The position numbers and the translations under genes are program-made. A stretch of 21,739 nt of DNA from a virus: IMG/VR virus record IMGVR_UViG_3300025115_000059, positions 1 to 21,739 of that record; one strand, written 5' to 3'. Under the pieces are notes generated by a model that made no database searches, had not been told where the DNA came from, and worked only from the letters and a program-made list of their open reading frames with translations. Position 1 is the first letter of the stretch. Each line of letters starts with the position of its first letter. Shown here one piece after another: positions 2 through 18,426 of the stretch.

Positions 2-313
2 GCAGGTAGTGGCACGCTGTTCTCCAGCGGTGTTCAGGGCGGTGTTGGTTCAACACAAAGCCAAATGGCTGGCAACCTCAATTATATGTCGGACATTGCT
101 GACACTCAAACTGCCTATGGGCAAGGGAGTCAGATGATGGGACAAGCCCAACTAGCCTACGGACTAGCACAAGGAGACATGGCTAGGGCACAAGCCTTCA
201 GTGCTCTTGGTGGCACCATCTTCAGTCAGGCTGGTGGATTTAGTGCGTTTGGTGGTGCTAAAGCAGACAACTATCGACCTGTTGTAGACTCTTCTGGGTG
301 GTCTAAGAACTAA
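2..313 (+). CDS. 3' end of a small Gly/Ala-rich virion protein gene (partial)
   Basis: The reading frame is open from the first complete codon at base 2 to the TAA at 311-313, so the gene begins upstream of the window. About 103 residues are visible. They are rich in Gly, Ala, Gln and Ser with short repeats such as GGAKA and GQAQLAYGLAQGD, which resembles the flexible tail of a small internal or neck/tail protein. The stop overlaps the next start (TAATG), so the two genes are probably translated together. Its place just before two very large virion-type genes is that of a T7 gp14-like internal core protein; this role is inferred from order only, and I recognise no domain. An internal ATG at 65 also exists, but the open frame before it argues for a longer protein. 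Confidence 0.7.
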   Translation, partial: AGSGTLFSSGVQGGVGSTQSQMAGNLNYMSDIADTQTAYGQGSQMMGQAQLAYGLAQGDMARAQAFSALGGTIFSQAGGFSAFGGAKADNYRPVVDSSGWSKN

Positions 314-5862: not shown

Positions 5863-8043
5863 ATGGCTAAAGAAAAAGCTGGATGGATGGCTAGGAATAT
5901 CGGCGAAGCAGACACTCCTGTTGCTCCCAACTTCGGACTCATTGAACAGGCGGGTGCCCATAGGGGCACTGCTGCCCGCATTGCGGGAGAGAGTGATGCT
6001 GCCACCATTAAGGCACTAGGGGAAATGGGTACCACTGCCTACCAAACCTACCAATATACAGAGAGTGCTAAAGAAGCCAGAGAGGTGATGGAGAGGCTGC
6101 AATCACCTACGTGGCAAGGCAAGAAGGCGTTTGAGGCAGAAGAAACTCTGCGAGGTGTTGACGCCCTTACGCTAGGTAATAAAAAACAAGCTCAAGAAGA
6201 GTTTGGGAAAATTGTAGACGCTGCTAAGAACGATGCCATTACTCCTGAACGTGCTCAAGCAGAACTTGCTGCTGCCATGCGTAAGCGCATTGCTGCCAAT
6301 CCCGGTGCTGCTGCCTCAATTCGTGCTGCTTACAACGAGTTTAGTGGACAAGGCAATTGGGACATTAGCGAAATGCAGCGTGCCTTTCAAAGTGGCAATG
6401 CTGCTGCTGATGAGCAGAAACGTCTGCTGGAACAGGCTAAAACAATCCCTGCTGGCTTTAGGGCCATTGTGAATGAGAAGGGCGAGACTGTGGGGGCATT
6501 CACTGATGCCGACTATGCACAGGCATTTAAAACACAGAGTGGCCCTGCATGGAACAGTGTGTTGTCCTACTACAACCACGAGAGACAGAAAGCAGGGTTG
6601 GTTGCACTAGAAACTGCCGCAAAGACTGAGGGCGTAGTGTCTGAACGACAAGCCATTGGTGTTAACAATGCCGTGTCTATCGGTAGAGAAGCAGCCATGC
6701 ACAGTGTGGACATTAAGTTTGCTGGACAGAGTTGGGAAGGACTTCCTCCAGACAAACTCGTTGAAGGAATGGCTACCTACCGCACCGAGATGCAAAACTC
6801 ATGGAGCAAGTTTAAAACACAGGCTCTTGAGCGCATCAATGCGGTGAAAGACCCCGTTGCTCAAGCTGCCATGATTAAGCACCTAGACGAACAAGACAAA
6901 CTTGCTAGAAGTCGCATTGATGGTATTACGAAGGACACAGGGGAGTTTTTGTCCCACATGCGTACAATGTCCTCAATCACCAATGACAAGGCACAGGGTG
7001 CTCTTGCCAATGCTCAAATGATGGACAAACTCATTGGGTTTGGTTTCACTAGCAGTGAGATTGATCGCATGAAGAATGAGAACGGTAGGCGTGAGATTTT
7101 GGAAAGCACCAAGAATGATCCTTCCAATCCCATGCGTAAGATGGTAGTGTATTTTGACCAGCTACGCACTGCTGTTGCGTCTGGTGACTTCAACCTGATG
7201 TCTTCTGCTATGATGGAAGGCAATAGGCTTCAGAAAATCACCACCACTGCTGACGCACTTGCTAAGGGTGAGAAAGTGGTTGATGGCAAACCAATTGATC
7301 CCACTGATCCAGACACCATTGCTGCTGTTAAGCTACGTGAGGAACGTGCTGCACAGGCTGCTAAGAAGGATGTTGTAGACTTGTCAGACAAGGATGTGGT
7401 GGCTTTACGTGAAACCGCTCCAGACCTGTCCGACAAAGAGTCGTCCATTGACAGCTTCCTAGCCTTCTTCAGGAGTGGGAAGATTGATAAGGTGGATAAG
7501 GGTAATGCTGAATTCATCCGTACCAACGTAGCCAATCGTATGCAACAGTGGCTTATGGGTGATGAACAAGTGCACTATCCTGCACGTCTTGCAACCGTTC
7601 TTAAGAACAATCAAATGCAAGTTGATGCGTCAGGCAATCTCACCATTAAGGTTGGAAGAAATAAATGGAACCAAGCAGGAGATGCTGCTAGGTTGGTGTC
7701 TCGTGCCAACAAGATGTTGGAGTTGGCTAGTGCTGCAAGTGGCATTGATAAGAAAGAATTGGCTCAACAAGTGTTGGAAAAAACAAAATCCTATTCGCCA
7801 GCCAAGCAAGGAGACACCTTCAGTGCTTCCTTCACTGAGGAAGACATTATGCGTATGGGGCCAGAAACAGCCAAGGCATCATTGCGCAAGATGGGAGTTC
7901 CTTCTCAATACATTGACGCCATTGTGAAGGACATGGAAGCCACACGACAATCTGCCACTAAGGTGGAGCAGCCTAAGAAAGAACCAGTGTTCGGTGGGGT
8001 TAAGTGGGGAGACACACGTGGCTCGCAAAAAGCCGGTGGTTAA
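5863..8043 (+). CDS. Putative internal virion protein, 726 aa, Ala-rich and helical
   Basis: The ATG follows the upstream TAA with no gap, and the GGAG in the upstream 3' end supplies a ribosome binding site. The 726 residues are rich in Ala, Lys, Glu and Gln, with no Cys in the stretches read, no signal peptide and no membrane segment. Long stretches look like helices or coiled coil. I recognise no catalytic motif. By size (T7 gp15 is about 747 residues) and position beside a giant protein, it is a candidate core/ejection structural protein; this is inference from synteny. Codon usage matches the neighbouring late genes. An exact copy of the palindrome lies at 7597-7608. The last 26 bases overlap the next small gene. 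Confidence 0.65.
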   Translation: MAKEKAGWMARNIGEADTPVAPNFGLIEQAGAHRGTAARIAGESDAATIKALGEMGTTAYQTYQYTESAKEAREVMERLQSPTWQGKKAFEAEETLRGVDALTLGNKKQAQEEFGKIVDAAKNDAITPERAQAELAAAMRKRIAANPGAAASIRAAYNEFSGQGNWDISEMQRAFQSGNAAADEQKRLLEQAKTIPAGFRAIVNEKGETVGAFTDADYAQAFKTQSGPAWNSVLSYYNHERQKAGLVALETAAKTEGVVSERQAIGVNNAVSIGREAAMHSVDIKFAGQSWEGLPPDKLVEGMATYRTEMQNSWSKFKTQALERINAVKDPVAQAAMIKHLDEQDKLARSRIDGITKDTGEFLSHMRTMSSITNDKAQGALANAQMMDKLIGFGFTSSEIDRMKNENGRREILESTKNDPSNPMRKMVVYFDQLRTAVASGDFNLMSSAMMEGNRLQKITTTADALAKGEKVVDGKPIDPTDPDTIAAVKLREERAAQAAKKDVVDLSDKDVVALRETAPDLSDKESSIDSFLAFFRSGKIDKVDKGNAEFIRTNVANRMQQWLMGDEQVHYPARLATVLKNNQMQVDASGNLTIKVGRNKWNQAGDAARLVSRANKMLELASAASGIDKKELAQQVLEKTKSYSPAKQGDTFSASFTEEDIMRMGPETAKASLRKMGVPSQYIDAIVKDMEATRQSATKVEQPKKEPVFGGVKWGDTRGSQKAGG
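7597..7608. repeat. Palindrome family, exact copy
   Basis: In the 726-codon gene, read as V-L-K-N. Confidence 0.9.
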
Positions 8044-8251
8044 ATTCCTCTACCCTTCAATTCCTGTAATGGAATTGGAGAAGGGGGAGCAATACACCTT
8101 GTTTCATCGACGTGTTGACAAAGTTGATTTGCCACATGACGACAATAACGAAGAGTGTTGGTGCTCCCCCATTGTTATGCGGGATTCAGATGTCCCGCCC
8201 GACTACACATACAAAGACTACATTGCTATTGTTGCAACATCTGTACACTGA
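8018..8251 (+). CDS. Small hypothetical protein (77 aa), last gene of the late operon
   Basis: I chose the GTG at 8018 because GGGGAG lies six bases upstream and the product then begins MARKKPVVKF, a typical small-protein start. An in-frame GTG at 7994 would add eight residues but lacks a good binding site. The product is soluble, contains a CWC pair at about residues 48-50 and ends in a short hydrophobic stretch (YIAIVATSVH). No family is recognised. It overlaps the 3' end of the 726-residue gene by 26 bases. Its own 3' end overlaps the convergent - strand gene by 26 bases. It is the final + strand gene before the terminator at 8327. Confidence 0.6.
   Translation: MARKKPVVKFLYPSIPVMELEKGEQYTLFHRRVDKVDLPHDDNNEECWCSPIVMRDSDVPPDYTYKDYIAIVATSVH
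8058..8077 (+). other. Perfect 7-bp hairpin just after the 726-aa gene
   Basis: CAATTCC (8058-8064) and GGAATTG (8071-8077) pair perfectly around a six-base loop, 15 bases after the stop of the ejection-protein gene and inside the next small gene. There is no T run, so it is not an intrinsic terminator. It could be an mRNA stability or processing hairpin. The function is inferred only. Confidence 0.35.
8083..8170. repeat. 9-bp inverted repeat with 70-bp spacer
   Basis: GGGGGAGCA at 8083-8091 is the exact reverse complement of TGCTCCCCC at 8162-8170. Both arms are inside the 77-codon gene near the end of the late transcript. They could close a long-range RNA stem around the coding region, or the match could be chance. 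Confidence 0.3.
8179..8198. other. GC-rich hairpin downstream of the - strand operon end
   Basis: GCGGGA (8179-8184) pairs with TCCCGC (8193-8198) across an eight-base loop. On the - strand it lies about 28 bases past the last stop codon (8226), where a transcript end is expected. No T run follows, so it would be at most a weak or factor-assisted end signal. Confidence 0.3.
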
Positions 8252-8393
8252 ATCCTTCTAATGATAGTAGTCGATGTCCATACATTGACAACAACCATCG
8301 ACGAGCAGCATTACGTGCTTCTTCATAACTGCTGAATGTGTTCTTAAGAACCTTCGGCAGTTTTTTATTTGTGCGTTTAATTGTGTAGGTCAT
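8226..8393 (-). CDS. Small basic hypothetical protein (55 aa), last gene of the - strand operon
   Basis: ATG at 8393 has a strong binding site, AAGGAG at 8401-8406, seven bases upstream. The start overlaps the preceding gene's stop as ATGA, which strongly supports translation. The product begins MTYTIKRTNKKLPKVLKN, is Lys/Arg-rich in its first 35 residues (EEARNAARRWLL follows) and turns hydrophobic near the end. It has one likely amphipathic helix and no recognised family. The VLKN codons are the palindrome at 8340-8351. The gene encloses the + strand terminator on the opposite strand, and its last 26 bases overlap the end of the late operon. Confidence 0.65.
   Translation of the reverse strand: MTYTIKRTNKKLPKVLKNTFSSYEEARNAARRWLLSMYGHRLLSLEGFSVQMLQQ
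8327..8366 (+). terminator. Intrinsic terminator of the late (+) operon
   Basis: AACTGCTGAA (8327-8336) pairs with TTCGGCAGTT (8353-8362) with a single T-G wobble, followed by six T residues at 8361-8366. The 16-base loop contains an exact copy of the 12-bp palindrome (8340-8351), so the loop can itself fold into a second hairpin. It acts in the + direction, 75 bases after the last late gene. It lies antisense inside the last - strand gene, so the same DNA is both terminator and codons. Confidence 0.75.
8340..8351. repeat. Palindrome family, exact copy in terminator loop
   Basis: Exact copy in the loop of the + strand terminator and, on the - strand, V-L-K-N codons of the 55-residue protein. 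Confidence 0.9.
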
Positions 8394-8596
8394 TTCCAAT
8401 CTCCTTGTTGTTCCCTAATGCGTCCTTTAAGTGCTTCGCAATAGACAGCAGCATCGCAAAGCTCCTCCTGTAAATGCTGTATCCAATCCAGAATGTCTAG
8501 GTCGGTACGCATTGTTGTTGTGCCATACTTATTTAGCCCAACCAAACTCCTGTTGTGCAACATCTTCATCACCTTCTGCACGTTTAAGTCTTCCAC
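8390..8596 (-). CDS. Small conserved-looking hypothetical protein (about 68 aa)
   Basis: The core reads VGLNKYGTTTMRTDLDILDW followed by IQHLQEELCDAAVYCEALKG. This compact helical pattern with an EExxD-like acidic motif superficially resembles the metal-binding helix of MazG-like pyrophosphohydrolases. I would not assign that activity. The start is ambiguous. GTG at 8596 sits nine bases after AAGGAGG, a TTG at 8602 is three bases after it, and an ATG at about 8563 follows AAGGTG with good spacing. The stop overlaps the next gene as ATGA. The 5' part overlaps the upstream gene in another frame by about 68 bases. Confidence 0.6.
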   Translation of the reverse strand: MEDLNVQKVMKMLHNRSLVGLNKYGTTTMRTDLDILDWIQHLQEELCDAAVYCEALKGRIREQQGDWK

Positions 8597-8774
8597 CTTC
8601 AATGGCCTCCTTCAACAAGTTTACAACCGCATATTCAAGCAACATTGCCACTTCCTCTTGGGACATGTCCCATTGTGTAATGGCACTGCCATCGGGCTTC
8701 TCCACAATGTTCAGTAGCTTCATGTCAGCACCCGTCACCAGCACTAGGCCGCCGGTTAGTTGGTGAATAGTCAC
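8529..8774 (-). CDS. Hypothetical protein (81 aa)
   Basis: The GTG start has AGGAGG six bases upstream, which decides it over internal ATGs. The product begins MTIHQLTGGLVLVTGADMKL and continues with an acidic helical section (WDMSQEEVAMLLEYAVVNLL) and a charged tail. It may fold as a small alpha/beta protein. No known family is recognised. It overlaps the upstream gene by 50 bases and the downstream one by about 68, so its tail is encoded in sequence shared with its neighbour. Confidence 0.55.
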   Translation of the reverse strand: MTIHQLTGGLVLVTGADMKLLNIVEKPDGSAITQWDMSQEEVAMLLEYAVVNLLKEAIEGGRLKRAEGDEDVAQQEFGWAK

Positions 8775-8976
8775 TCTCTGCCTCCTCCCAATCTTTCAAC
8801 ACATCTGCAAAATGCTCCACCCACTCTTTGTGGTTGAGAGGAAAACTACACCCACGAAGGAAATAGAAGAAGTGTTCTACCAGCGTAGGCCACGACTCGT
8901 GTTCCAAATCGTGATTATGTTGAATTTCCAACCCACTATTGTAGTCGTTGTACAGAAACTTAAGTTTGCCTTCCAT
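8725..8976 (-). CDS. Hypothetical protein (83 aa)
   Basis: ATG at 8976 follows AAGGAG by six bases; a longer frame from 9009 would run into the end of nrdJ and lacks such a site. The product (MEGKLKFLYNDYNSG at its start) is acidic and aromatic, with several His and Trp residues (HESWPTLVEHFFYFLRG, HKEWVEHFADVLKDWEEAE). It looks like a small soluble helical protein. No family is recognised. It is the first gene after nrdJ, with a 13-base gap. Confidence 0.6.
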   Translation of the reverse strand: MEGKLKFLYNDYNSGLEIQHNHDLEHESWPTLVEHFFYFLRGCSFPLNHKEWVEHFADVLKDWEEAESDYSPTNRRPSAGDGC

Positions 8977-8989
8977 TGTGTTCTCCTTA

Positions 8990-10624
8990 TTAAATGCCAC
9001 ACACACCACTCTTACAACCTGCGTCTATGTTTTCTTCGTAAATTATTCCTTTGTGCTTGACGGCTTCCCCATATTCAACTTCTGTAAGAGGTTGTCCACC
9101 ACGACTTCCGTCGGGATAGCATGTAAATCCGCGAAGTCTTGGAGCATATCGAGATAGTGTCTCTGCAAAATGCGCAACTTTCGCTTCGTTGTTATCTTTT
9201 GTCCCCCAAGCAGGGAGATTAATTGTGCTTGAGATTGACATATCGACATAATCTTGCACATCTGCTTGGAAAGCAATTCTTCGTTCATACTGTGTAGAGA
9301 GTCCATACGCTGTCTGTATCCTTTCTGGAGCTATTCCGTCTTTAATTAGCATTTCTGCCGTGGCATCCACGCAATACTCATAGTGCCATCGGGTTCCGTC
9401 TTTAAGATAACGCCGCTTGTATGCAACCGCGAATAGCGGCTCAATGCCAGTTGTCGTTCCGGCCAAGATTCCAATAGTGCCGGTGGGGGCAATGGCTCGA
9501 TAAGCAGCAGGGTGACTAATGAAGAGCCTATCACAATGTTCATTTGCAGATGCCTCACTTTCTTCTTTATACACCATCAACCATTGATGAAGTTCGGGAG
9601 TCACTTCATACTCATATCCTCGCTTGAGGAGCCACTCGTGGATTCCCATGAGTCCAAGCCCAAGTCTACGATTGCGCTCCCGCACTTGGTAAACTTTATC
9701 GTAAGGGAGGTCTGCTCGGAGCGTTCCACAAACAAGGAATTTTGCTGCCAAAGAAACGATGGCCTTAAACTCGTCCAAACTTTCCACATTGCCCAAATTG
9801 ACACTTCCAAGATTGCAAACGTCGCTATCATCTTCTGATGTAACTTCAGTGCATGCGTTCCGTAGAGTTTCATTCTGCTTATCCCCAAAGTTGAAACTAA
9901 ATCCCGGTTCACCTGTCTCCATAGCCTGTCGACAGTTGTCGTAGAACGTAGAGTGCAGGTGCCTACCTTCTCCGGCGTTGAGCCACGCATCATCATAATT
10001 GACACTAATGTTGGTCATGTCTAGCGGAGCAGCGGCATTGAAGTCGGTGTTCTTAAGAGCACGAATTTCTTCACTCCAATTTTTAGCAACAAGAAAATCA
10101 CGAATGTCATCGTGCTGCCAATTGAGTGAGGCATAAATTGCTGAACGCCTACTACCACCTTGCATTACATTTCGACCAATTTCATTAACCATATGCATAA
10201 GACTAATAGGGCCACTAGACGTGCCGCCAGTACGGCGAATAGGCTTTCCTTTAGGCCGTAGAATAGAATAGTCGACACCAATGCCACCTCCAGTCATCAA
10301 GCAGCTTGTAGCCCTCCATGCAATGTTTGCCCACTCTTCACGACTGTCTTCCTCTGCACGAAGCAAATAGCAGTTGTTGAAGAAACTGTTGGGCCTACCT
10401 GCATAATAAATGTATCGCCCACCGGGAACAAACTTAAACGTGCGAACATATTCTGCCAATTGCTTACGGTCTTCCTTGGTCATAATGGGATGTGTTGTTC
10501 CCCCACGTGTCCCACAAACATCCTCTACAAGTCGCTCAGACAAATTGGCCCACGTATCATTCGGGCCTTGAGCATACTTAAAGCGGAAAACATTCTCACC
10601 CAAATTGCTACGAAATTCACTCAT
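8990..10624 (-). CDS. nrdJ: Adenosylcobalamin-dependent (class II) ribonucleotide reductase
   Basis: This enzyme reduces ribonucleotides to deoxyribonucleotides for phage DNA synthesis. The 544 residues carry the full active-site set: C85 (FFNNCYLL) and C270 (SDVCNLGSVNLG) as the redox pair, and N256/C258/E260 (NACTE) with C258 as thiyl-radical cysteine. The nucleotide-binding loop reads APTGTIGILAGTTTGIEP. The C-terminal C537 and C542 pair (CKSGVC) would be recharged by thioredoxin. TGGGIGVDYSILRPKG and GSRRSAIYASL are typical of B12-dependent NrdJ. No small subunit (NrdB) or activase (NrdG) is nearby, which fits class II. It is shorter than the roughly 740-residue monomeric enzymes and comparable to compact forms. 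The start overlaps the upstream stop (ATGA) with GAGGTG before it. A palindrome variant is at 10049-10060. Confidence 0.93.
   Translation of the reverse strand: MSEFRSNLGENVFRFKYAQGPNDTWANLSERLVEDVCGTRGGTTHPIMTKEDRKQLAEYVRTFKFVPGGRYIYYAGRPNSFFNNCYLLRAEEDSREEWANIAWRATSCLMTGGGIGVDYSILRPKGKPIRRTGGTSSGPISLMHMVNEIGRNVMQGGSRRSAIYASLNWQHDDIRDFLVAKNWSEEIRALKNTDFNAAAPLDMTNISVNYDDAWLNAGEGRHLHSTFYDNCRQAMETGEPGFSFNFGDKQNETLRNACTEVTSEDDSDVCNLGSVNLGNVESLDEFKAIVSLAAKFLVCGTLRADLPYDKVYQVRERNRRLGLGLMGIHEWLLKRGYEYEVTPELHQWLMVYKEESEASANEHCDRLFISHPAAYRAIAPTGTIGILAGTTTGIEPLFAVAYKRRYLKDGTRWHYEYCVDATAEMLIKDGIAPERIQTAYGLSTQYERRIAFQADVQDYVDMSISSTINLPAWGTKDNNEAKVAHFAETLSRYAPRLRGFTCYPDGSRGGQPLTEVEYGEAVKHKGIIYEENIDAGCKSGVCGI
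10049..10060. repeat. Palindrome family, 1 mismatch
   Basis: In nrdJ on the - strand, read as A-L-K-N; + strand GTTCTTAAGAGC. Confidence 0.75.
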
Positions 10625-10920
10625 TCAGCCACCTCATATTTGTTTGTTGCCTCTACAATCTCTTCTGGTATATTGGAGAGAATTGATGCAGTCCACCCTG
10701 TCGTCCCCCACCTGTGTTTAAAGCACTTATAAACACTGCCAGAATAACCGTGAAACAGGTAGTGGTCTTCGTGCTCCTCGACGTTGCTGATGCCACTATT
10801 CATGCGCCACTCATCGCTGCCCAAATACCCACCATACCAACCTGCTAACACCTTGTCAATGTGTTCACCAGTGTGGGGGTTACGCAATGTGACAACAATC
10901 CATTTGTCAGGGGTATACAT
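10621..10920 (-). CDS. Hypothetical protein (99 aa) upstream of nrdJ
   Basis: The ATG follows AAAGGACGACG, and the stop overlaps the nrdJ start by four bases. The 99 residues begin MYTPDKWIVVTLRNPHTGEH and include an aromatic, His-rich middle (EEHEDHYLFHGYSGSVYKCF) and a GTTGW turn. It has the look of a small beta-rich protein with no membrane segment. I recognise no family. Coupling to nrdJ suggests co-expression, not necessarily a shared function. Confidence 0.6.
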   Translation of the reverse strand: MYTPDKWIVVTLRNPHTGEHIDKVLAGWYGGYLGSDEWRMNSGISNVEEHEDHYLFHGYSGSVYKCFKHRWGTTGWTASILSNIPEEIVEATNKYEVAE

Positions 10921-11041
10921 CGTCGTCCTTTCCTACAATTAGTCGTACAATTCCTAAATCCAAAATCATCAAGTCATCTTTAAAGTCAAACTCAATGCCC
11001 ACCATAAACCCAGTGATGAGGTGCACACTAATGAACATCAT
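10907..11041 (-). CDS. Very small hydrophobic/acidic protein (44 aa)
   Basis: The ATG at 11041 shares its A with the upstream TAA (TAATG), and GAGGAG lies about eight bases before it. The product begins MMFISVHLITGFMVGIEFDF and then KDDLMILDLGIVRLIVGKDD. It is rich in Ile, Leu, Val and Asp and looks like a small beta-sheet protein, not a clear membrane helix because Asp and Lys interrupt it. It ends 14 bases inside the next gene. Support comes from the binding site and the overlaps; the function is unknown. Confidence 0.55.
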   Translation of the reverse strand: MMFISVHLITGFMVGIEFDFKDDLMILDLGIVRLIVGKDDDVYP

Positions 11042-11220
11042 TATGTGTTCTCCTCAAACCATTTAGCCATGTTCTTCTTGATGAACGGTGCCAAATCGGA
11101 CAACACCCTAGCTACTCCTTCTTCTTCACACATTTTCTCAAACTTGGTGAGCGTCCAGTAGTAGTGGGCTTCCTCTTGGGAGGGGAAGTCTCCTTCTCTG
11201 CTGTCGTATTCGTCAAACAT
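11041..11220 (-). CDS. Small acidic protein (59 aa) overlapping the HNH gene
   Basis: ATG at 11220 follows GAAAGGGG by about six bases. The product begins MFDEYDSREGDFPSQEEAHY and continues YWTLTKFEKMCEEEG, ending FIKKNMAKWFEENT. It is acidic, aromatic and helical and reads as a genuine folded small protein. Its first 109 bases are shared, in another frame, with the C-terminal tail of the HNH gene. Its stop overlaps the next start as TAATG. The smoother amino-acid composition here suggests this is the older gene and the HNH tail runs through it. Confidence 0.6.
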   Translation of the reverse strand: MFDEYDSREGDFPSQEEAHYYWTLTKFEKMCEEEGVARVLSDLAPFIKKNMAKWFEENT

Positions 11221-11636
11221 TGCTTACCCCTTTCACTAGTTGTTTTCTTCTTGTGACACGTCTTACACAAGATTTGTAAGTTGGATGCAGGACAATAGAG
11301 ACGATTGATGTAGGTGTCCCAATTGACAAACCCCTCAGACAAACTCACCACAGGATCAATGTGGTCTACGTCCACTTCTGTAGCAGGGAAAAACTTGCCA
11401 CAACTAGCACATTCATAATGTGATGCTTCCCTATTTGTGCGTTTGTTTTTCCTCTTGCCAACATATGCGTTCTTAAGAGCAGCAAACTTGTTAGGAAACT
11501 TCCTGAACGCTGCCCTCAGTGCGCTTGTTACGAATGCCCGCATCCTTCCGTCTGTCCAATGATCGACTGTTGACATTATTGTGGAAGGGGGCTTTTGCCC
11601 ACCAACTGTTTTTCTTACTCTTGGTTTTCGTTCCAT
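11112..11636 (-). CDS. HNH endonuclease (174 aa)
   Basis: This is probably a free-standing, homing-type HNH nuclease. C76-x2-C79 and C124-x2-C127 form the structural zinc site. D91-H92 in DVDHIDPV is the catalytic beta-beta-alpha core, followed by N119 in NLQILCKTCHKKKT. Residues about 25-56 (WTDGRMRAFVTSALRAAFRK) match the helical N-terminal part common to phage HNH proteins. The ATG is preceded by CAGGAG. The natural domain ends near residue 136. The remaining Ser/Thr/Lys-rich tail (SPPKRKPTTTGRSPS) is encoded over the start of the 59-codon gene, so an original stop may have been lost. A palindrome variant at 11469-11480 lies inside. Confidence 0.88.
   Translation of the reverse strand: MERKPRVRKTVGGQKPPSTIMSTVDHWTDGRMRAFVTSALRAAFRKFPNKFAALKNAYVGKRKNKRTNREASHYECASCGKFFPATEVDVDHIDPVVSLSEGFVNWDTYINRLYCPASNLQILCKTCHKKKTTSERGKQCLTNTTAEKETSPPKRKPTTTGRSPSLRKCVKKKE
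11469..11480. repeat. Palindrome family, 1 mismatch
   Basis: In the HNH gene, read as A-L-K-N. Its presence in a likely mobile gene suggests long residence or site capture. Confidence 0.75.
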
Positions 11637-11665
11637 TGCTGTTAAACTCCTGCATGTGTGGGTAT

Positions 11666-11977
11666 TTAGCGATTGTCACCATTGCCTCCAATTGCATTAC
11701 GTTGTTTACGACTGTCTAGTTTGACGATGTTGGCCTCTGCTATGTCCGATAAATGTAGCTGCAAATCTGCTGCAATTGCAGCCACCATCCACAGCACATC
11801 ACCCAACTCTTTCTTAACATCCTCTACAAACGTGTCTGTTTTTCCATCTCGACGCATCTTGCTAAACTTGCCAGCAACCTCCCCTGCTTCTTCCATGAGG
11901 CCCAACAGGGCATACACATTGTCAGCAGACTCCTTACGAAAACTCATTGCCTTGGCTTGATAGGTGTCAAAGTGCAT
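11666..11977 (-). CDS. MazG-type nucleotide pyrophosphohydrolase (103 aa)
   Basis: This protein would hydrolyse nucleoside triphosphates to monophosphates (dNTP pool clean-up or ppGpp-related control, as for phage MazG). The metal-binding motif E29-E30-x-x-E33 (LGLMEEAGEVAG) and E57-x-x-D60 (KKELGDVLWMVAAIAADL) is complete for the single-domain all-alpha NTP pyrophosphohydrolase fold. I chose the ATG at 11977 because GGAG precedes it and the product starts directly at the domain (MHFDTYQAKA); a longer frame to 12016 only adds out-of-family residues. It overlaps the upstream gene by 11 bases. The position between thyX and nrdJ fits nucleotide metabolism. Confidence 0.85.
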   Translation of the reverse strand: MHFDTYQAKAMSFRKESADNVYALLGLMEEAGEVAGKFSKMRRDGKTDTFVEDVKKELGDVLWMVAAIAADLQLHLSDIAEANIVKLDSRKQRNAIGGNGDNR

Positions 11978-12179
11978 TGTTCTCAAACTCCTTCCACTGA
12001 TCGGTTGTGCTAACATACTTGATGATGCGCTTCAGTGCCTTCAAAATTTTGTCACTGTCAGGCTCACCTTCCCAATGTTTTTGTAGCTCATAACAGTCGA
12101 TGAGATATTGACGAGTACATTCACCAGCAATGTCCCACACCGCATCCCCATACTCATGTGCCCACTCTTTTAGTTTCAT
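11967..12179 (-). CDS. Small hypothetical protein (70 aa)
   Basis: The ATG overlaps the thyX stop as ATGA and has AAAGGAG seven bases upstream. The product begins MKLKEWAHEYGDAVWDIAGE and is amphipathic helical throughout with acidic and aromatic residues (CYELQKHWEGEPDSDKILKA). There is no membrane segment and no recognised family. It is sandwiched between thyX and the MazG gene and coupled to both, so it is probably co-expressed with nucleotide metabolism. Confidence 0.65.
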   Translation of the reverse strand: MKLKEWAHEYGDAVWDIAGECTRQYLIDCYELQKHWEGEPDSDKILKALKRIIKYVSTTDQWKEFENNAL

Positions 12180-12925
12180 TCTTCGTCTCCTTTAACAAGA
12201 ACAGCCCAACTCTCAGGATACAACACTTTCATCTCTTTGTCAAGCATTTTTGCCACAATTTGTGTTTCTTGTTGAGAATGCTTGTCAAGTCGCAAGTTGC
12301 ACACCCTAGCAAAAGCATACAAACTTCCACTCCAAATCCACTCCGTCATAGTGTTTTGAGGCAACACCATGCGTGCTTGTTCAGGACACACTTGTAGCTC
12401 AAGTAAGGCACTATACGTATTAAGACACTTTTCTACGACTTCTTCAGGGAACAGCACACAATTCATGTCAACTTCCATGTCCTGAATGGGAGACAAATCC
12501 ACCACTCCATCTCCGCTACCTTGCTTCTTATTGTACGCTCGCTCTCTCCACTCATTCGGGAAATAAAACTCAGGCTCACTGTCCACATAACGCCGACTCA
12601 CTTCATTCCATGCCAACCCCACTTGATGCTTAACAAGCTGTCGTGCTACGAAGACGGGGGCTTTAATGCGGAAAGATGCGAAGGCATGACTGAAAGGACT
12701 CCAATGATTGTGTGTTGCCAAATAGCGTAGCAGCTTTTTGTCTGCCCCACTCATCTGCATGATGTATTTGCGATTGGTGACATTCCCTTCATCATCAAAC
12801 CACTCCTGAACGCCAACAACGTCAGGCTTACTAGCCTTATCAAAACTCACTCGTGCTGCATTAACAACACTCCAATCATCTCCCATGTGGTCGAGATGTG
12901 TCACCTGCATGTCTGCTGTATTCAT
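12176..12925 (-). CDS. thyX: Flavin-dependent thymidylate synthase
   Basis: ThyX methylates dUMP to dTMP with methylenetetrahydrofolate and FAD. The 249 residues include HNHWSPFSHAFASFRIKAPV, then RQLVKHQVGLAWNEVSRRY at about residues 95-113, then CPEQARMVLPQNTMTEWIWS and a C-terminal helix, all in the ThyX order. The signature region differs from the textbook RHR(X)7S: residues 99-101 are K-H-Q and one more residue separates them from S110. This appears to be a phage-type variant and need not mean inactivity. The start overlaps the sigma gene stop as ATGA with AAGGAG eight bases upstream. Together with nrdJ it lets the phage make its own dTMP. Confidence 0.93.
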   Translation of the reverse strand: MNTADMQVTHLDHMGDDWSVVNAARVSFDKASKPDVVGVQEWFDDEGNVTNRKYIMQMSGADKKLLRYLATHNHWSPFSHAFASFRIKAPVFVARQLVKHQVGLAWNEVSRRYVDSEPEFYFPNEWRERAYNKKQGSGDGVVDLSPIQDMEVDMNCVLFPEEVVEKCLNTYSALLELQVCPEQARMVLPQNTMTEWIWSGSLYAFARVCNLRLDKHSQQETQIVAKMLDKEMKVLYPESWAVLVKGDEE

Positions 12926-13338
12926 TTCAACTTTCTCCTTGCTCTAACTAAGTTGGTTCGATTGCGAGGTACAACACCTTCCATCTTGTCTAGCAATGCA
13001 TCATACTCTGCTGGTGTTAGTTGCTCCATCAGTTCTGCATATTGCCTACCACTAGCTAACAACTCTGGTGTGGTGTCGTCTGCTAAGTCAAACACATCCA
13101 CGTCGCTGTCAATGTCTGGTGCACTCTTCTTCTGCCAATTGATTAGTATGTTTTTAGCAATGGTGTACACCCATGTGTTGAAGGCTACGCTGTGGTCAAA
13201 CTTATCTAGGTGTTCAAATGCTCTTAAGAACGCCTCTTGTACTGCATCTTCTCCTTCTTCTCCCCGCTTATGCACAGCATATCTAACCAACCTACTTCGA
13301 TAGATGTTTGCCAACTCTTCAAATTCCTTCGGAGTCAT
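12922..13338 (-). CDS. ECF-type RNA polymerase sigma factor (138 aa)
   Basis: Residues about 7-72 match sigma70 region 2. EDAVQEAFLRAFEHLDKF is the core-binding helix, and FNTWVYTIAKNILINWQKK is the -10 recognition helix with its conserved Trp and basic end. Residues about 101-138 (YAELMEQLTPAEYDALL, then RNRTNLVRARRKLK) fit region 4, the -35 binding helix-turn-helix ending in the usual RARRKL. At 138 residues it is short for an ECF factor (usually 160-200). The start follows a strong AGGAGG. It would direct host RNA polymerase to phage promoters, probably middle or late ones; the targets are unknown. A palindrome variant at 13220-13231 encodes part of region 2 in a shifted register. Confidence 0.85.
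   Translation of the reverse strand: MTPKEFEELANIYRSRLVRYAVHKRGEEGEDAVQEAFLRAFEHLDKFDHSVAFNTWVYTIAKNILINWQKKSAPDIDSDVDVFDLADDTTPELLASGRQYAELMEQLTPAEYDALLDKMEGVVPRNRTNLVRARRKLK
13220..13231. repeat. Palindrome family, 1 mismatch
   Basis: In the sigma-factor gene, in the shifted register (F-L-R-A of region 2). Confidence 0.75.
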
Positions 13339-13486
13339 CTTCCCCCTCCTTTAAGAAACGCTCAATTTCCTTCTCTGCACGTTTCTTTTCCACCTTCTGC
13401 TTCTTTTGTTGCACGACCTTGTGGTCGTAGTTGTACTCAGGATCGAACAGTGTTTTGTGCTGCTCACCAACTTGACTTGGTTTCAT
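13319..13486 (-). CDS. Small charged coiled-coil-like protein (55 aa) preceding the sigma gene
   Basis: The ATG overlaps the metallophosphoesterase stop as ATGA. The product starts MKPSQVGEQHKTLFDPEYNY and then runs through a Lys/Glu-rich helix (QQKKQKVEKKRAEKEIERFL) to an acidic tail. There is no recognised family. Its last 20 bases overlap the start of the sigma gene, which takes its ribosome binding site from inside this gene, so the two are tightly coupled. A role as a sigma partner is possible but is speculation from position. Confidence 0.6.
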   Translation of the reverse strand: MKPSQVGEQHKTLFDPEYNYDHKVVQQKKQKVEKKRAEKEIERFLKEGEDDSEGI

Positions 13487-14247
13487 TTTCCATATTTCCG
13501 TTCAAGGTAGGATAGGGAGACAAACATGGGGTCAGCCCAACCATCGGCGGCTTCATGCAAGACGACAACACCACGCCAGTGTTTATTTCCCTGATAGCCC
13601 TTATATCCTTCGTCATGTTGATAGAATGCACCGGCAACGATGGCAAGCTGTTTGCTCCCATCCACCAACTCCCTACATGCGAAGTCGAGTTCTTGTCGAT
13701 GCCCCATAACAAAACTTTTTCCGACTCGTTGTAAGAGGGACGCAGCCCTACCTGTGTATGGCCTACCTGACATTGGATTAGCAAAATAGTGGCTAAACAA
13801 AATGTTTTCAATGTTGACAATTTGCAAATAGTCATATGTTTCCCATCCTTTCAAATCAAAGTCGTCATACGACAACATTCCAATTAGTTCTGGATTGCTG
13901 TTGACATAACGCTCTAAACGCTGCTCATGGTTGCCCATTAGGAACACTTTACGTGGGTTATAAATAGGCTTTTTATACCTACGTTGTGCAGCTTGTAGGC
14001 TAATAATGGGCTTCTCCAACAGCCTCATTGCTTCCCTACCTGCTTCAATGTCTGCAACAACTCTCTTCCCTTCGATAGCAGCAGTTCCCTTGTCATAGCT
14101 AGAGAGACTAGGTAGGTCGAAATGATCCCCCAAATGTACAATGATGTCAGGACGAGTGTCCACAATGTATTTACCAAGCCATCCAAGATGGGCATTAGGT
14201 ACTCCGGGTTTACACTGTGTGTCAGGAATTATCAGAATTTTCTTCAT
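13483..14247 (-). CDS. Calcineurin-like metallophosphoesterase (254 aa)
   Basis: This is a two-metal phosphoesterase of the calcineurin superfamily. The motifs appear in order: D9-x-Q11 (IPDTQ; the usual DxH with Gln for His), G40-D41-x-x-D44 (HLGDHFD), G105-N106-H107-E108 (MGNHEQR), H153 (FSHY) and G182-H183 (VMGHRQ). The Gln in motif I and the GHRQ ending are deviations seen in some family branches. The ATG at 14247 overlaps the upstream stop as ATGA, so it is preferred over an in-frame GTG six bases earlier. The substrate is unknown; DNA end repair, nucleotide or protein phosphate removal are all possible. The product lacks a signal peptide and should be cytosolic. Confidence 0.87.
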   Translation of the reverse strand: MKKILIIPDTQCKPGVPNAHLGWLGKYIVDTRPDIIVHLGDHFDLPSLSSYDKGTAAIEGKRVVADIEAGREAMRLLEKPIISLQAAQRRYKKPIYNPRKVFLMGNHEQRLERYVNSNPELIGMLSYDDFDLKGWETYDYLQIVNIENILFSHYFANPMSGRPYTGRAASLLQRVGKSFVMGHRQELDFACRELVDGSKQLAIVAGAFYQHDEGYKGYQGNKHWRGVVVLHEAADGWADPMFVSLSYLERKYGK

Positions 14248-14558
14248 CGCCACTCATCCCAAGATGCCACCATAAATGACAGCCTAACACCCTCAATTTT
14301 CCCATCGTCTGTTAGCCATGCGTGTGCTTCAAACCCACCTGTACCTACAGTGAATGGCCCGACGTAGTCTGGAGCGGTTGTACGGTAGGTTTTTGCTTCT
14401 GTGCATGCGAAGTTTAGTAGTTCGACTGCCCTGCTCTGAAGTTGACTAATGCTAGGAACACCTTCACCACGCCACTCCCACTCAAGTGCCACCATTGCCT
14501 TATGCGTCTTCTCCCAATCAAACTGCTCCAACACATGTTTAATCAACTTGTTCTTCAT
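14244..14558 (-). CDS. Hypothetical phage protein (104 aa)
   Basis: ATG at 14558 has GGAGG six bases upstream inside the end of the nuclease gene; a longer frame to 14585 is less likely. The product has an N-terminal helical half (LIKHVLEQFDWEKTHKAMVA, then LQSRAVELLNFACTEA). A compact beta-rich half follows (VGTGGFEAHAWLTDDGKIEG). It reads like a well-folded conserved phage protein, but I know no function. It overlaps the upstream nuclease gene by 20 bases and the downstream phosphoesterase by four. Confidence 0.65.
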   Translation of the reverse strand: MKNKLIKHVLEQFDWEKTHKAMVALEWEWRGEGVPSISQLQSRAVELLNFACTEAKTYRTTAPDYVGPFTVGTGGFEAHAWLTDDGKIEGVRLSFMVASWDEWR

Positions 14559-15393
14559 TTGCTTCCTCCGTAATTTCAGGAACATTGGGTAGTTTTTCTA
14601 CCACGGTAAGCCACTCAACCCTACCCGCATAGGCAAATCCACGCAAAGAGGGGTAGCACGTTTTCTTAAATGCACAATAGGAACAAGTGGTACACAGCTT
14701 ACGATTGGGACTTGTTGCACTTTGTGGCACATCCTCCATTACGTCTTCTGGTGGCGCATCTTTCGACAGTGTTCCAATAGCTCTGGAGAGGCCGTATTCA
14801 AACGCATCAACGTCTGGAGAGAACGGGAAATAGTGAATGTGTCCGAGTTCCTTTTGAATTGTGAGGAATCCCATCTCGTCGCTCTTAAGAACATTGGCGT
14901 AGCCGTTGAGTTGTCCGAAATATCCGAAGGGGTCTTCTGTGAGGTGGTCATGGAATTTTCGTTCGCTTTGTTTTGTAACACTCTTCACGTCCACGACGCT
15001 GCCATCAATGATAGCATCAATACGACCACGAACACGCCAATCACCGCTAACATATTCCACCTCCTTCTGTTCGGCTTCCACGCAATGCCCTGCATCACGT
15101 GCAAGTTGCAACACCAACTCTTCCAACATGTCCCCATACAAAAACTTAATGCGTGTCACACTGGTGATGTCTTCACCAGCATCAGGTGTGTGATGCTTAA
15201 ACCACATACGACGCAAACAAGTTTCACCAAGTTCTGAGAAGTAAATTGTCTTGGGCTTACGCTCACGTGGCTCACGTTTCCCCATTTGCTTCACATAGGC
15301 ATTCGCCATGTTTGTAGAAAAAGCCGAGGTGGCAAGCCCCTCTGCCTTCCCCACTATGGCATGAATGTCATCAACCAAAGTGGAAACATTCAT
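14539..15393 (-). CDS. Cas4-like PD-(D/E)XK nuclease with Fe-S cluster motif (284 aa)
   Basis: This is probably a DNA exonuclease of the Cas4/RecB-like family. The catalytic core is visible: GDMLEE at 87-92, RGRIDAI with D126, D135-V-K137 (the DxK of PD-DxK), and Q161-x3-Y165 (QLNGYANVL). Four cysteines fit the 4Fe-4S pattern of Cas4 and AddB: C59 (GETCLRR), then C237-x2-C240-x5-C246 near the C-terminus, with an extra C234. No cas1, cas2 or CRISPR array is in the window, so this is a phage DNA-processing or recombination enzyme, not an adaptation module. The start follows the upstream TAA directly with GAGGGGG before it. A palindrome variant is at 14881-14892. Confidence 0.82.
   Translation of the reverse strand: MNVSTLVDDIHAIVGKAEGLATSAFSTNMANAYVKQMGKREPRERKPKTIYFSELGETCLRRMWFKHHTPDAGEDITSVTRIKFLYGDMLEELVLQLARDAGHCVEAEQKEVEYVSGDWRVRGRIDAIIDGSVVDVKSVTKQSERKFHDHLTEDPFGYFGQLNGYANVLKSDEMGFLTIQKELGHIHYFPFSPDVDAFEYGLSRAIGTLSKDAPPEDVMEDVPQSATSPNRKLCTTCSYCAFKKTCYPSLRGFAYAGRVEWLTVVEKLPNVPEITEEANEEQVD
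14881..14892. repeat. Palindrome family, 1 mismatch
   Basis: In the Cas4-like nuclease gene, read as V-L-K-S on the - strand. Confidence 0.75.
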
Positions 15394-15942
15394 TTATTCC
15401 CCCTCAAACGCATTATCACTCTCTTCATCACGTGTCTCTACCTTCTTAGCCGTAGATTTCTCCACTTTAGCCTTTGCTACGGCCAAATCAGCATCGCCAC
15501 AACTGTAGGCTTCAAACATGCGTGCCACTGCAATGATGGCTTCAGCTTGCTTCTCGTAGGACAGCTTCTTATCCACAGTGTCCTTCATAAGCTGCACAGC
15601 GTTTGTCAGCGAGTTTTGCCGGACAATAGCTCGTTGCCCATCCAAAGGAGGAATCGGAAACACATTGCTACGACCACCAAAACCACCACCGCCAGCAGGG
15701 CGAGCGGGAGCAGCAGCAGGAGCAGTAGCACCACCACCAGATTTTTTAAATGAGTCCATATTAACATCTTTGCCATAGGCACCCTCAGTAAAGTCAAACT
15801 CAACAACATCACCTGCATTGACACGGGGGTTTTTAAAGCCACACTTAAACCATTCGCCATTGGCCTTGAACGAATAGGTGGGTTTCTCTCCAAATTTTGT
15901 TTTTACGCTTTTAGTAGAAATCTGTTCAATAGTATAAGTCAT
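15394..15942 (-). CDS. Putative single-stranded DNA binding protein (182 aa)
   Basis: The N-terminal 65 or so residues look like an OB-type beta barrel ([37 protein letters not shown]). A Pro/Ala/Gly-rich flexible linker follows ([19 protein letters not shown]), then a helical section and a strongly acidic C-terminus ([13 protein letters not shown]). That layout, OB-like domain plus flexible linker plus acidic tail, is typical of phage and bacterial SSBs, whose tail recruits replication partners. Sequence identity to a named SSB is not obvious to me. The start overlaps the upstream stop (ATGA) with AAAGGA before it. It lies between the polymerase and Cas4-like genes, which supports a DNA-binding role. 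Confidence 0.55.
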
Positions 15943-16172
15943 AGTTTATTCCTTTCGAGAATGGCTGTAGCAAAATTGAGTAACTGCTCTTGTGTTGCAT
16001 TGCGCTTCATTACATTGGCAAGGAGGCTAATTACCTCTATGTTTCCCCTAATGTATCCTTTTGAGTTGTCTATCCTATCTAAACTGTAGCTGTTGTCCTG
16101 CTTTGTTCCGTGGTTGGACTGTAGAGGCATTTTTAATGGTACTGTTACTGCTACAATTTTCACTTCGCTCAT
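15939..16172 (-). CDS. C-terminal half of an HNH-type endonuclease (77 aa), probably truncated
   Basis: [20 protein letters not shown] followed by [19 protein letters not shown] is the characteristic C-terminal half of a phage HNH family in which SLDRID carries the catalytic region and GN-x-x-VIS-x-x-AN follows. The N-terminal part with its usual Cys residues is missing from this frame. Fragments resembling the N-terminal half lie just upstream in other frames. The binding site before ATG 16172 is weak. The stop overlaps the SSB-like start as ATGA, so the frame may still be translated for coupling. I infer a remnant of a homing-type HNH gene; activity is doubtful. Confidence 0.6.
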
Positions 16173-16356
16173 TATCTATTCTTTCAATTATTCTCCCCCA
16201 ATTAACAACAATAAAATCTTCAATGGCTTTTTCATGGAAAGAGCCATAAAGGGGTTGCCTATCAATTTGTGCCCTAACTATATGTTTTAATCTCATTCTA
16301 CAAATGACTGGAATATCTGTAGAATCCCAAGGCTCCACCCATTCAACATATTTCAT
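16075..16356 (-). CDS. Hypothetical protein (93 aa) overlapping the HNH remnant
   Basis: The ATG overlaps the upstream stop as ATGA but has no clear ribosome binding site. The first 66 residues ([20 protein letters not shown] at the start, [20 protein letters not shown] later) look like a plausible folded protein. The last 27 or so (Ser/Asn/Gln-rich) are encoded over the start of the HNH remnant in another frame and look unselected. It may be an intact small gene with an out-of-phase tail, or part of a frameshifted mosaic with its two neighbours. No family is recognised. Confidence 0.45.
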
Positions 16357-16472
16357 ATACTAATACCCATTTTCTTATTCGCAATAGAATAAGCACGCTG
16401 TCTATTCCGATACTTCTCTGGATTTGCTGCGTATGCTTTACGTTTAGCGATGCGGTGCTCTTCTGTCAACAT
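16353..16472 (-). CDS. Very small basic protein (39 aa), possibly the N-terminal fragment of the HNH gene
   Basis: ATG at 16472 lies six bases after GGAG at the end of the polymerase gene. The product begins MLTEEHRIAKRKAYAANPEK and continues YRNRQRAYSIANKK. This Lys/Arg-rich pattern of the NPEKYR-type is common at the N-terminus of phage HNH nucleases. It stops at an ATGA overlap with the next frame. Together with the C-terminal HNH half 180 bases downstream, it suggests one HNH gene broken into pieces. A genuine independent small gene cannot be excluded. Confidence 0.45.
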   Translation of the reverse strand: MLTEEHRIAKRKAYAANPEKYRNRQRAYSIANKKMGISI

Positions 16473-16473
16473 T

Positions 16474-18426
16474 CTACTCTCCATATTTAGATAGCTCGAC
16501 TTCTTCTAAGTCTTGCCAGTTCTTCCCTACACTACAACCAACACTAAGTGTAACAGGCATCTCAATGTTGTAGTAGTGGTTGATGAAGGCGGTTGTGTTC
16601 TTAAGAATAGTGTAGCACGCTTTGATAAACTTGTCAAGTATTTCTTTCTTACAGTCGAAAACAATTGAGTCGTGAACAGTCATTACAGGAACAACATGCT
16701 CTGACAACCCACTCTTGTACAACTTCTCAACTATAAGGCCCACCATGTGAGGAACCACATCACCTGTTGCAAACCCCTGCACAGGCCAATTCTTCAACTC
16801 AGTGGGGCTAAAGCTAACACCTCCTTTCCAATCGTTGTCATACTCTGTAAACACATAGCGACGACCTGTGGGCATTATCTTGGTGTACACACCTACAGGA
16901 AGGCCCTTAATGCTGCGTTTGGACGACAATGTTCGTCCCTTGGATGCCTCCTCCATAATTGATTCGTGAAACGCGCCTACGCCCTTATAGCGGCTGTAAA
17001 ACACCTTGATGAATTTCTTAGCTTCTGCCACACTACAACCAGCATTCTCTGCCAATGTTTTAGGGCCAGCACCATACACCAGCCCAAAAGACAATCGCTT
17101 AAACCACTTACGCTCATCCTTGGTGCATGCTCTGCCATACATTCCTTTGAACAACTCTGTGTGCATGTCAACACCATTGTTAATGTCATCAGCAAGCTGA
17201 GAGTCGTCTGCAATGGCTGCAAGCCCTGCCATTTCAAGTTGGCTGTAGTCAAAATCAACTAGGCGTCCTTCATCTCCCCACCTGCTAATGTAGGCTGCTT
17301 TAATTCCTCCTTCAACTGTTTGGTTTTGGATGTTGGGTTTGTTACAAGATAGCCGCCCTGTTTTGGTGGAGCAGTGTTGCAGGTTGGGATGGATGCGGTT
17401 GTCGAGGAACGTAAGAGAGCGCATGTTTTCATAGTAGGTTTCACGTTGTTTACTCCAAGTGCGTAAATTGAGAATGGATGTTGCAATGCCTAGTTTGTCC
17501 TTGATGTTCTTAAGAACCGACTCATCGACAGTGAAATAGCCCATCTTTGTAGGAGAGGCACCACACTTAACTGGGTCATACCCAAGCCCATCAGCTACAT
17601 ATTCAACATCTACAGTTTTAAACTTGTCCTTTCCATTCTTATACTTCCCTACAAGGTGTTTCTCACGAACCACATACTTCCCACCAAACAACAAACAGCT
17701 AACGTCTTTAGGACTACTCCACTGCCAAGAAGGATAGGCAGGAGGAAGAACACCAACAACAGATGATGATAGTAGTTCTTCCTCTACATCAATTTGCTCC
17801 TTCAACACCTCACTCTGCCTCTCAACATACCCAACATCAATGTGCATGCCATTGAGTTCCATGATGGTTGTAGCAACAAGAGCACGACACTGGCTGGTCA
17901 CAAGTTGTGACATGTTGTTCTTAGACACTAGTGGTTGTTGTGCTTCGTAAATGAGTAGTGTGTTGTTAATGTCTCCTTGTAAATAGTCTGCCAGCATGTC
18001 AATGGGAATGTCTTCTGTTTGAACACCTGCTTTCCAAAACTCCTTAATGCGATCATCCTTAAGAACACCACCATACTTCTCACTCAATTCATCCAGTGAT
18101 GGGTAGGTGTGCTGTTGCCCAGACAACAAATACTCAACAAGCTGTGTGTCCCAAACTGTTTTGCTAACAAGTTCTTTCTGAGTAATCCAGTTGTTAACAA
18201 GCAGGTAGAGTAGGTCAAATTTAATGTTGTGGCCAACCACTACATCATGCGCTTTCCACCATGCGAGGAAAGTTTCTTTTCCCAACGGGTTGTCCTCAAC
18301 AATGAGAGACACCTCACTGTTCTTCAGTCCGGCCAGCACTATCCGATTGTCCGGCCAGAACGGACTCGCTGGCATGCTGATGGGACTCCTTATTGTCGTC
18401 TCCAGATCGATTATTAGTGCCGTCAT
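16474..18426 (-). CDS. Family A (T7/Pol I type) DNA polymerase with 3'-5' exonuclease (650 aa)
   Basis: This is the replicative polymerase. The exonuclease motifs are D7-x-E9 (IIDLETT), N67-x3-D71 (GHNIKFDLLYL) and Y148-x3-D152 (YLQGDINN). The polymerase motifs are A, D393 in DFDYSQLE; B, R439-x3-K443-x3-F447 ending Y451-G; and C, H585-D586-S587 (TVHDSIVFD). Motif C has Ser where E. coli Pol I has Glu. I start at ATG 18426 because MTALIIDLETT places the first exonuclease motif at the N-terminus as in T7; a longer frame to 18546 only adds foreign sequence. The binding site is weak, so coupling to the overlapping Cys-rich gene is likely. It carries three copies or variants of the palindrome. 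Confidence 0.95.
   Translation of the reverse strand: MTALIIDLETTIRSPISMPASPFWPDNRIVLAGLKNSEVSLIVEDNPLGKETFLAWWKAHDVVVGHNIKFDLLYLLVNNWITQKELVSKTVWDTQLVEYLLSGQQHTYPSLDELSEKYGGVLKDDRIKEFWKAGVQTEDIPIDMLADYLQGDINNTLLIYEAQQPLVSKNNMSQLVTSQCRALVATTIMELNGMHIDVGYVERQSEVLKEQIDVEEELLSSSVVGVLPPAYPSWQWSSPKDVSCLLFGGKYVVREKHLVGKYKNGKDKFKTVDVEYVADGLGYDPVKCGASPTKMGYFTVDESVLKNIKDKLGIATSILNLRTWSKQRETYYENMRSLTFLDNRIHPNLQHCSTKTGRLSCNKPNIQNQTVEGGIKAAYISRWGDEGRLVDFDYSQLEMAGLAAIADDSQLADDINNGVDMHTELFKGMYGRACTKDERKWFKRLSFGLVYGAGPKTLAENAGCSVAEAKKFIKVFYSRYKGVGAFHESIMEEASKGRTLSSKRSIKGLPVGVYTKIMPTGRRYVFTEYDNDWKGGVSFSPTELKNWPVQGFATGDVVPHMVGLIVEKLYKSGLSEHVVPVMTVHDSIVFDCKKEILDKFIKACYTILKNTTAFINHYYNIEMPVTLSVGCSVGKNWQDLEEVELSKYGE
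16597..16608. repeat. Palindrome family, 1 mismatch (GTTCTTAAGAAT)
   Basis: Near the 3' end of the polymerase gene, read as I-L-K-N. Confidence 0.75.
17506..17517. repeat. Palindrome family, exact copy
   Basis: In the polymerase gene, read as V-L-K-N. Confidence 0.9.
18055..18066. repeat. Palindrome family, 2 mismatches (ATCCTTAAGAAC)
   Basis: In the polymerase gene, read as V-L-K-D; the weakest member listed. Confidence 0.5.

Follow-up and report, generated by a model that had tools for sequence, protein, structure and literature searches.

Bacterial ECF sigma factors of solved structure, such as SigW and RpoE, possess a complete region 4 with a helix-turn-helix. The late sigma factor gp55 of T4, a small phage sigma, reads mainly the −10 element and needs the sliding clamp and gp33. 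Two further phage sigma factors, both experimentally backed, are described in the part of PMC8948821 available to us: gp36 of phiEco32, which lacks region 4 and has a promoter with a single element, tAATGTAtA, and gp47 of Salmonella phage 7-11, which has region 4 and whose late promoter is GTAAtg-(16)-aCTA. According to the same text, promoter positions are conserved between these phages despite independently acquired sigma factors, and phage 7-11 starts with sigma70 promoters. Roseophage SIO1 is characterized, in the available part of PMC6775973, as distantly related to T7 and as having no RNA polymerase. Searches of the literature on phage ECF sigma factors and late promoters, and on sigma factors of Zobellviridae, returned no direct match.

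The DNA analysed, called the window, is the entire 21.7-kb record of an uncultured virus of bacteria. Its genes form two arms that converge, an arrangement shared with SIO1 and VP41s3. The early arm, on the minus strand, encodes primase, DnaB helicase, PolA, Cas4 exonuclease, a metallophosphoesterase, the sigma factor, ThyX, MazG, an HNH endonuclease and ribonucleotide reductase (RNR). The features needed below are the following.

313–8043, plus strand: end of the late arm, encoding an internal virion protein of 1849 aa and a protein of 726 aa; it converges with the early arm
8990–10624, minus strand: RNR large subunit, near the early-arm end
11112–11636, minus strand: HNH endonuclease (phrog_1985), in relatives usually the next gene downstream of sigma
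12176–12925, minus strand: thyX (Pfam Thy1, 143 bits), overlapping the sigma stop by 4 nt
12922–13338, minus strand: short ECF-type sigma gene, 138 aa; region 2 at about residues 4–72, a linker, and a predicted three-helix, truncated region 4 at about residues 91–137
12925–12963, minus strand: retained recognition-helix-like segment NRTNLVRARRKLK, sigma residues 126–138
13319–13486, minus strand: highly charged protein of 55 aa; its gene and the sigma start overlap by 20 nt
14539–15393, minus strand: Cas4-type exonuclease (phrog_1990), whose place upstream of sigma is conserved

An earlier note on this DNA had reported a 138-residue product at 12922–13338 and, overlapping its start, the 3′ end of a charged 55-residue protein. 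Both open reading frames are confirmed, and the strand, which the note did not give, is the minus strand. The sigma gene begins with ATG, preceded by a strong Shine-Dalgarno sequence, AAAGGAGGGGGAAG. Record L002 is 99.97% identical to window positions 8093–17207, and a frame-breaking sequencing error in the gene is therefore unlikely. The 55-aa protein matches no family at E 0.001 or better, its best matches reaching only 0.007 and 0.14.

Several other observations concern the window as a whole. A 57-aa protein encoded where both arms converge (8226–8399, minus strand) is 46–57% identical in five relatives. A 77-aa endonuclease VII-like ORF (15939–16172, minus strand) also matches the Srd anti-sigma PHROG 1400 (4e-8), probably via a shared domain. 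The 1849-aa protein, used as a query for further pieces of this phage, found nothing. For the lineage, the major capsid protein (MCP) of the relative G005 scores 49–50% to those of SIO1, P12053L and ICBM1, with the SIO1 capsid protein (~49%) among the nearest named relatives, and the PolA of the window reaches ~36% at best to ICP2/VP41s3. The best reading, short of a formal placement, is that these sequences come from a podovirus that would be related to Zobellviridae/Cobavirinae.

Region 2 establishes the family of the sigma gene product. Residues 13–71 match Pfam Sigma70_r2 (4.9e-13, 49.1 bits against a curated cut-off of 24), and the NCBIfam model TIGR02937 for sigma70-ECF proteins scores 54.2 bits, above its cut-off of 42.9. 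Among the seven short sigma factors described below, Sigma70_r2 matches all, and TIGR02937 is listed for 7/7 at E ≤ 1. The assignment made in the earlier note thus withstands profile searches, in that region 2 puts the product inside the sigma70 family. This region is common to bacterial ECF sigma factors (SigW, RpoE). The SigW profile scores best in NCBIfam, yet far under its own cut-off, and SigW is also the best PDB match of the sequence (1.2e-11). Foldseek with the predicted model gave no PDB match at E ≤ 0.001; predicted domain 1 compares with ECF chains at Z 6–7 and rmsd ~3 over ~70 residues, with the C-terminal part barely covered in a model of pLDDT 73 from a low-depth alignment.

Recognisable regions 2 and 4 had both been claimed for the protein; region 2 stands, and region 4 is truncated. 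No Pfam region-4 model is listed for the window sigma even at E 10, and PF08281 and PF04545 match none of the seven short members, whereas the full-length ECF sigma factors of cousin phages exceed the PF08281 cut-off in all four cases scanned (L152, L026, L154 and L158; L153, L155, L156 and L157 were left out). The C-terminus of the window sigma is 12–14 residues shorter than those of full-length ECF sigmas from related phages. Profiles of the short and full-length groups align end to end (probability 98.9, E 2e-17), and a 12-column gap in this alignment coincides exactly with the part of the helix-turn-helix made up of its first helix and the turn. The helix after the gap is kept, as DRKNLWWAKQ identically in six members, as NRTNLVRARRKL in the window and as YAKKLVWQAKRTI in a full-length cousin; the window segment NRTNLVRARRKLK aligns with DRKNLWWAKQVL of the relatives and with YAKKLVWQAKRTI of the full-length cousins. 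AlphaFold models give three C-terminal helices and no fourth, both for the window sigma (91–105, 109–119 and 127–137) and for the G005 sigma (91–104, 109–119 and 126–140), with pLDDT near 70–75; because they were built on 7 and 6 sequences, we take them as consistent with the sequence argument. By these alignments, the protein lacks the first helix of the helix-turn-helix and retains the recognition helix.

The comparison with the described phage proteins bears on how the product should be named. Like the short clade, phiEco32 gp36 (Kuravirus) matches Pfam region 2 only (18 bits), with no region-4 match; it differs in its length of 214 aa, in its 13% identity to the window protein and in belonging to another phage group. 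The 7-11 protein gp47 differs in having region 4, according to the available part of PMC8948821 (PF08281 gives 21.8 bits here, under its cut-off), and is 23% identical to the window protein. Judged from its sequence, the window protein is an ECF-superfamily sigma factor with a truncated region 4 and not a canonical two-domain ECF sigma; we file it in this way because the short clade resembles gp36 and the cousins resemble 7-11.

The short sigma is present in seven distinct IMG/VR phages: the window, G002, G005, G006, G016, G019 and G020. A scan with the single window sequence found only L002, and the six further contigs came from PolA relatives (18 loci) together with an alignment scan. Their sigma factors share 36–42% identity with that of the window (36–41% in alignment A2); region 2 contains invariant residues, and the tail is conserved. 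No sigma match is present in G031 (49.7 kb), G013 or G017, and Sigma70_r2 matches none of ICP2, ParMal1, VP41s3 and SIO1. In tblastn searches of 50,697 phage records, 6 were matched by the window sigma, 6 by that of G005 and 15 by the full-length sigma of a cousin, mostly unannotated faecal phages with partial matches and none named Zobellviridae; a scan of genome contigs yielded 15 loci, bacterial ECFs 27–41% identical over part of the query.

In the relatives, the usual gene order is Cas4 exonuclease, other genes, sigma, HNH endonuclease and RNR, and in five of the six the stop codon of sigma overlaps or directly adjoins the start of HNH; for G016 the HNH homologue is absent from the homology table. 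Between sigma and HNH, the window has thyX, a 70-aa gene and mazG. The coupling of sigma to thyX that had been pointed out earlier is therefore real in the window, where the genes overlap by 4 nt, but is not conserved, and a special meaning for it is unsupported: in five of the six other contigs sigma runs directly into the HNH gene. ThyX genes elsewhere in G005, G006 and G008 are only 23–26% alike to that of the window. Because thyX is not beside sigma in the relatives and its products are so dissimilar, we regard the coupling as local.

Other features of this neighbourhood vary as well. In three contigs a small ORF immediately precedes the sigma gene (window 13319–13486; G020:2988–3185, 65 aa; G016:28758–28985, 75 aa); these ORFs have no evident sequence similarity to each other, and each is a possible candidate for a sigma regulator. 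RNR is of one type in the window, G002, G016 and G020 (79–82% between the window and the others) and of a second type in G005 (14474–17234), G006 and G019 (25–26%), where a 323-aa NrdB-like gene, read from the sequence, follows; this is an apparent swap within the group. A conserved early-arm gene pair at G005:2793–5590, the second gene of which matches a 'porphyrin biosynthesis' PHROG (CobS-like ATPase), recalls the CobT/CobS pair of ICP2.

A candidate promoter for the sigma factor is found in the relatives. A motif first noticed in G005 and G016, in the intervals ahead of their late genes, has the consensus TTGGACA-N15/18-ACTAATRYAT and exactly two sites in each of three ~45-kb relatives (G005, G006 and G016). 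One site lies in the divergent region ahead of the first late gene, which is tail-fibre-like, and the other precedes the scaffold gene ahead of the major capsid gene. Here 'scaffold' is a label from position, its PHROG being of unknown function; capsid, portal and terminase are identified. The pattern TTGG..CTAATRYAT occurs twice in each of these relatives, once in the 36.8-kb fragment G019 and nowhere else in the four, each time ahead of the first late gene or the scaffold gene; a further 14 sequences that were examined do not have it. When all upstream regions within a genome were compared without use of the pattern, the motif pair came first of 1741 in G005, first of 1741 in G006 and first of 2045 in G016. 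A weight matrix made from these and related sites found no third site above shuffles in the three relatives, and nothing above shuffles in the window, which contains neither promoter position. Thus the shared −35/−10 pair that had been proposed as a check is seen before late genes of the relatives, but not in the window.

The motif was traced at the scaffold position in 80 loci, each carrying a related capsid gene. TTGGACA is found in 12, all within the 16 nearest (capsid at least 73% identical), and variants in the other 4 of these 16 and in L105 (TTGGATT at one locus; TTGTAAC, TGGAACG, TTGAACC and TTAGACA at four), with neither in the remaining 63. An exact scan of the whole viral collection is unspecific, being swamped by chance matches: a scaffold or first late gene lies downstream of the TTGGACA pattern in 13 of 116 places, among the matches listed. 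Sigma and motif are on the same contig in four records (G005, G006, G016 and G019), equivalent to about two independent cases because G005, G006 and G019 are near relatives. A strong hairpin also separates the tail genes from the gene that follows the capsid gene (L057:11801–11866, minus strand; L062:10502–10551, plus strand). It folds at −27.7 kcal/mol (z −4.3), followed by a T run, in G005 and at −21.1 kcal/mol (z −3.0) in G016; the terminator scan does not list it, though folding shows it. A hairpin after the capsid region suggests that scaffold and capsid may be their own transcription unit.

Cousin phages with full-length ECF sigma factors (G008, G010, G011, G030, G035, G036, G037, G039, G040 and G041) offer a comparison within the same phage group. 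Such longer sigmas occur in 7 of 24 records whose MCP is ~69% identical to that of G005, and also in G008, G010 and G011. Despite the profile similarity to the short group noted above, they differ in their intact region 4 (4/4 scanned), in gene position (directly after RNR in G030 and G036) and in their promoter. G030 and G036 carry GGGTAACGT-N16-ACTAAG at the same two late positions, a sequence close to the late promoter of 7-11 as given in the available part of PMC8948821. The blind upstream comparison is weaker for the cousins, since their pair ranks 2 of 2039 and 3 of 2228, with ties. Chance matches dominate the collection scan with the cousin pattern too, where 14 of 46 lie directly before a scaffold or first late gene, at constant distances of 60 and 77. 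The cousins carry another motif at the same two places, so the positions of the promoters are kept whereas their sequence changes along with the sigma. A tree of 164 columns, with weak inner branches, separates the sigmas into short and full-length clades (split support 98 and 100). This tree gives no support for the short sigma having arisen from that of the cousins through a simple deletion; two acquisitions are likelier than one deletion, because the tree keeps the groups apart and the genes lie at different places.

Early genes of the relatives appear suited to the host enzyme. A perfect TTGACA-N16-TATAAT (12/12) stands at the early-arm start of G005 and G006, though not of G016, and perfect TTGACA/TATAAT pairs are found also in G030, G036 and G039, away from the early-arm start. 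A single-subunit RNA polymerase was sought with PF00940 (RNA_pol), which has no match in 11 records, several being fragments and two (the window and L002) the same phage; the positive control ParMal1 scored 349 bits in the same search. Two traits of phiEco32 and 7-11 can be compared on this basis. A sigma gene in the early or middle arm, no polymerase of the phage's own and early genes on sigma70 are found together in relatives, the window being a fragment; a shared element before late genes is found in G005, G006, G016 and G019 and is not visible in the window.

The explanation that we consider likely is that the window gene encodes the late sigma factor of a podovirus lineage free of T7-type polymerase and related to Zobellviridae, in a truncated variant of the phiEco32/7-11 scheme. 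The early genes, that of the phage sigma among them, would be transcribed by the host polymerase with its own sigma70. Region 2 of this sigma would bind host core polymerase and melt the −10 element (ACTAATRYAT in relatives), and the shortened region 4, with its recognition helix kept, would read or help to read the −35 element (TTGGACA in relatives). The sigma would fire two promoters, one heading the late operon and the other serving as a booster ahead of the scaffold and major capsid genes, and so probably redirects host RNA polymerase to late, particle-building genes. The proposal in the earlier note that the sigma, with no T7-type polymerase involved, may direct host RNA polymerase to promoters of the phage is therefore probable, through the relatives' motif and the lack of an RNA_pol match, with the promoters themselves outside the window. 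The window is without its own late promoters; we infer from the relatives that its phage would have the same layout, that the sigma would read the motif and that the truncated domain would make the −35 contact.

The −35 contact is the part of this explanation most open to another reading, in which the sigma, in the manner of phiEco32 gp36, reads the −10 element only and TTGGACA is bound by another phage protein or a host factor. We hold this to be possible, though not the expected outcome. The helix-turn-helix is incomplete in 7/7 members, as gp36 lacks region 4, and the single phiEco32 element is very like ACTAATGCATA of the short-clade relatives, going by the available part of PMC8948821. 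The −35/−10 distance is 18 in G005, G006 and G019 and 15 in G016 (promoters at 8172 and 43157); this is more variation than expected for one rigid sigma, suggests two elements not bound by one rigid protein, and counts against the explanation that we favour, as do the small number of independent cases, the sigma70 score of the G016 motif given below and the unspecific scan of the viral collection. However, DRKNLWWAKQ is identical in six members, as if kept for function, and the relatives have a conserved element at −35 distance that is absent from phiEco32 promoters as that source describes them.

Reading of the late promoters by host sigma70, with the phage protein doing something else such as silencing host transcription by occupying core polymerase, is improbable. 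The G016 motif, as TGGACA-17-TAATAT, scores 9/12 as a sigma70 promoter, and host sigma70 could therefore read it. Yet the G006 late-start and G005 scaffold sites fall under the sigma70 threshold of the scan, the early arm of G005 and G006 has its perfect 12/12 promoter, the conserved element is longer than sigma70 needs, and the motif differs between the two phage groups along with the sigma. That the gene is a decaying, non-functional ECF remnant is very improbable, for despite the truncated region 4 and the window member being the most divergent at the C-terminus, the frame is open behind its strong Shine-Dalgarno sequence and the same shortened form, with its invariant residues and tail, recurs in seven phages.

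Under the late-sigma reading, a truncated region 4 alongside a conserved −35 element raises the question of whether a −35 element can be read without a complete helix-turn-helix. We suggest, tentatively, that a three-helix region 4 with a bare recognition helix reads the specific −35 sequence TTGGACA, as the smallest form of −35 recognition, with the promoter co-evolving with the helix. The window's different recognition helix then predicts a different −35 sequence, and under co-evolution this variant helix would read another −35 element. Two phage groups have different, probably independently acquired sigmas, and their promoters differ although they occupy the same two places in the genome; such a pattern was predicted in the 7-11 paper, so far as its available part describes (PMC8948821). 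For phages like SIO1, this neighbouring uncultured lineage offers a candidate answer to the timing of late genes, in the form of a concrete sigma–promoter pair.
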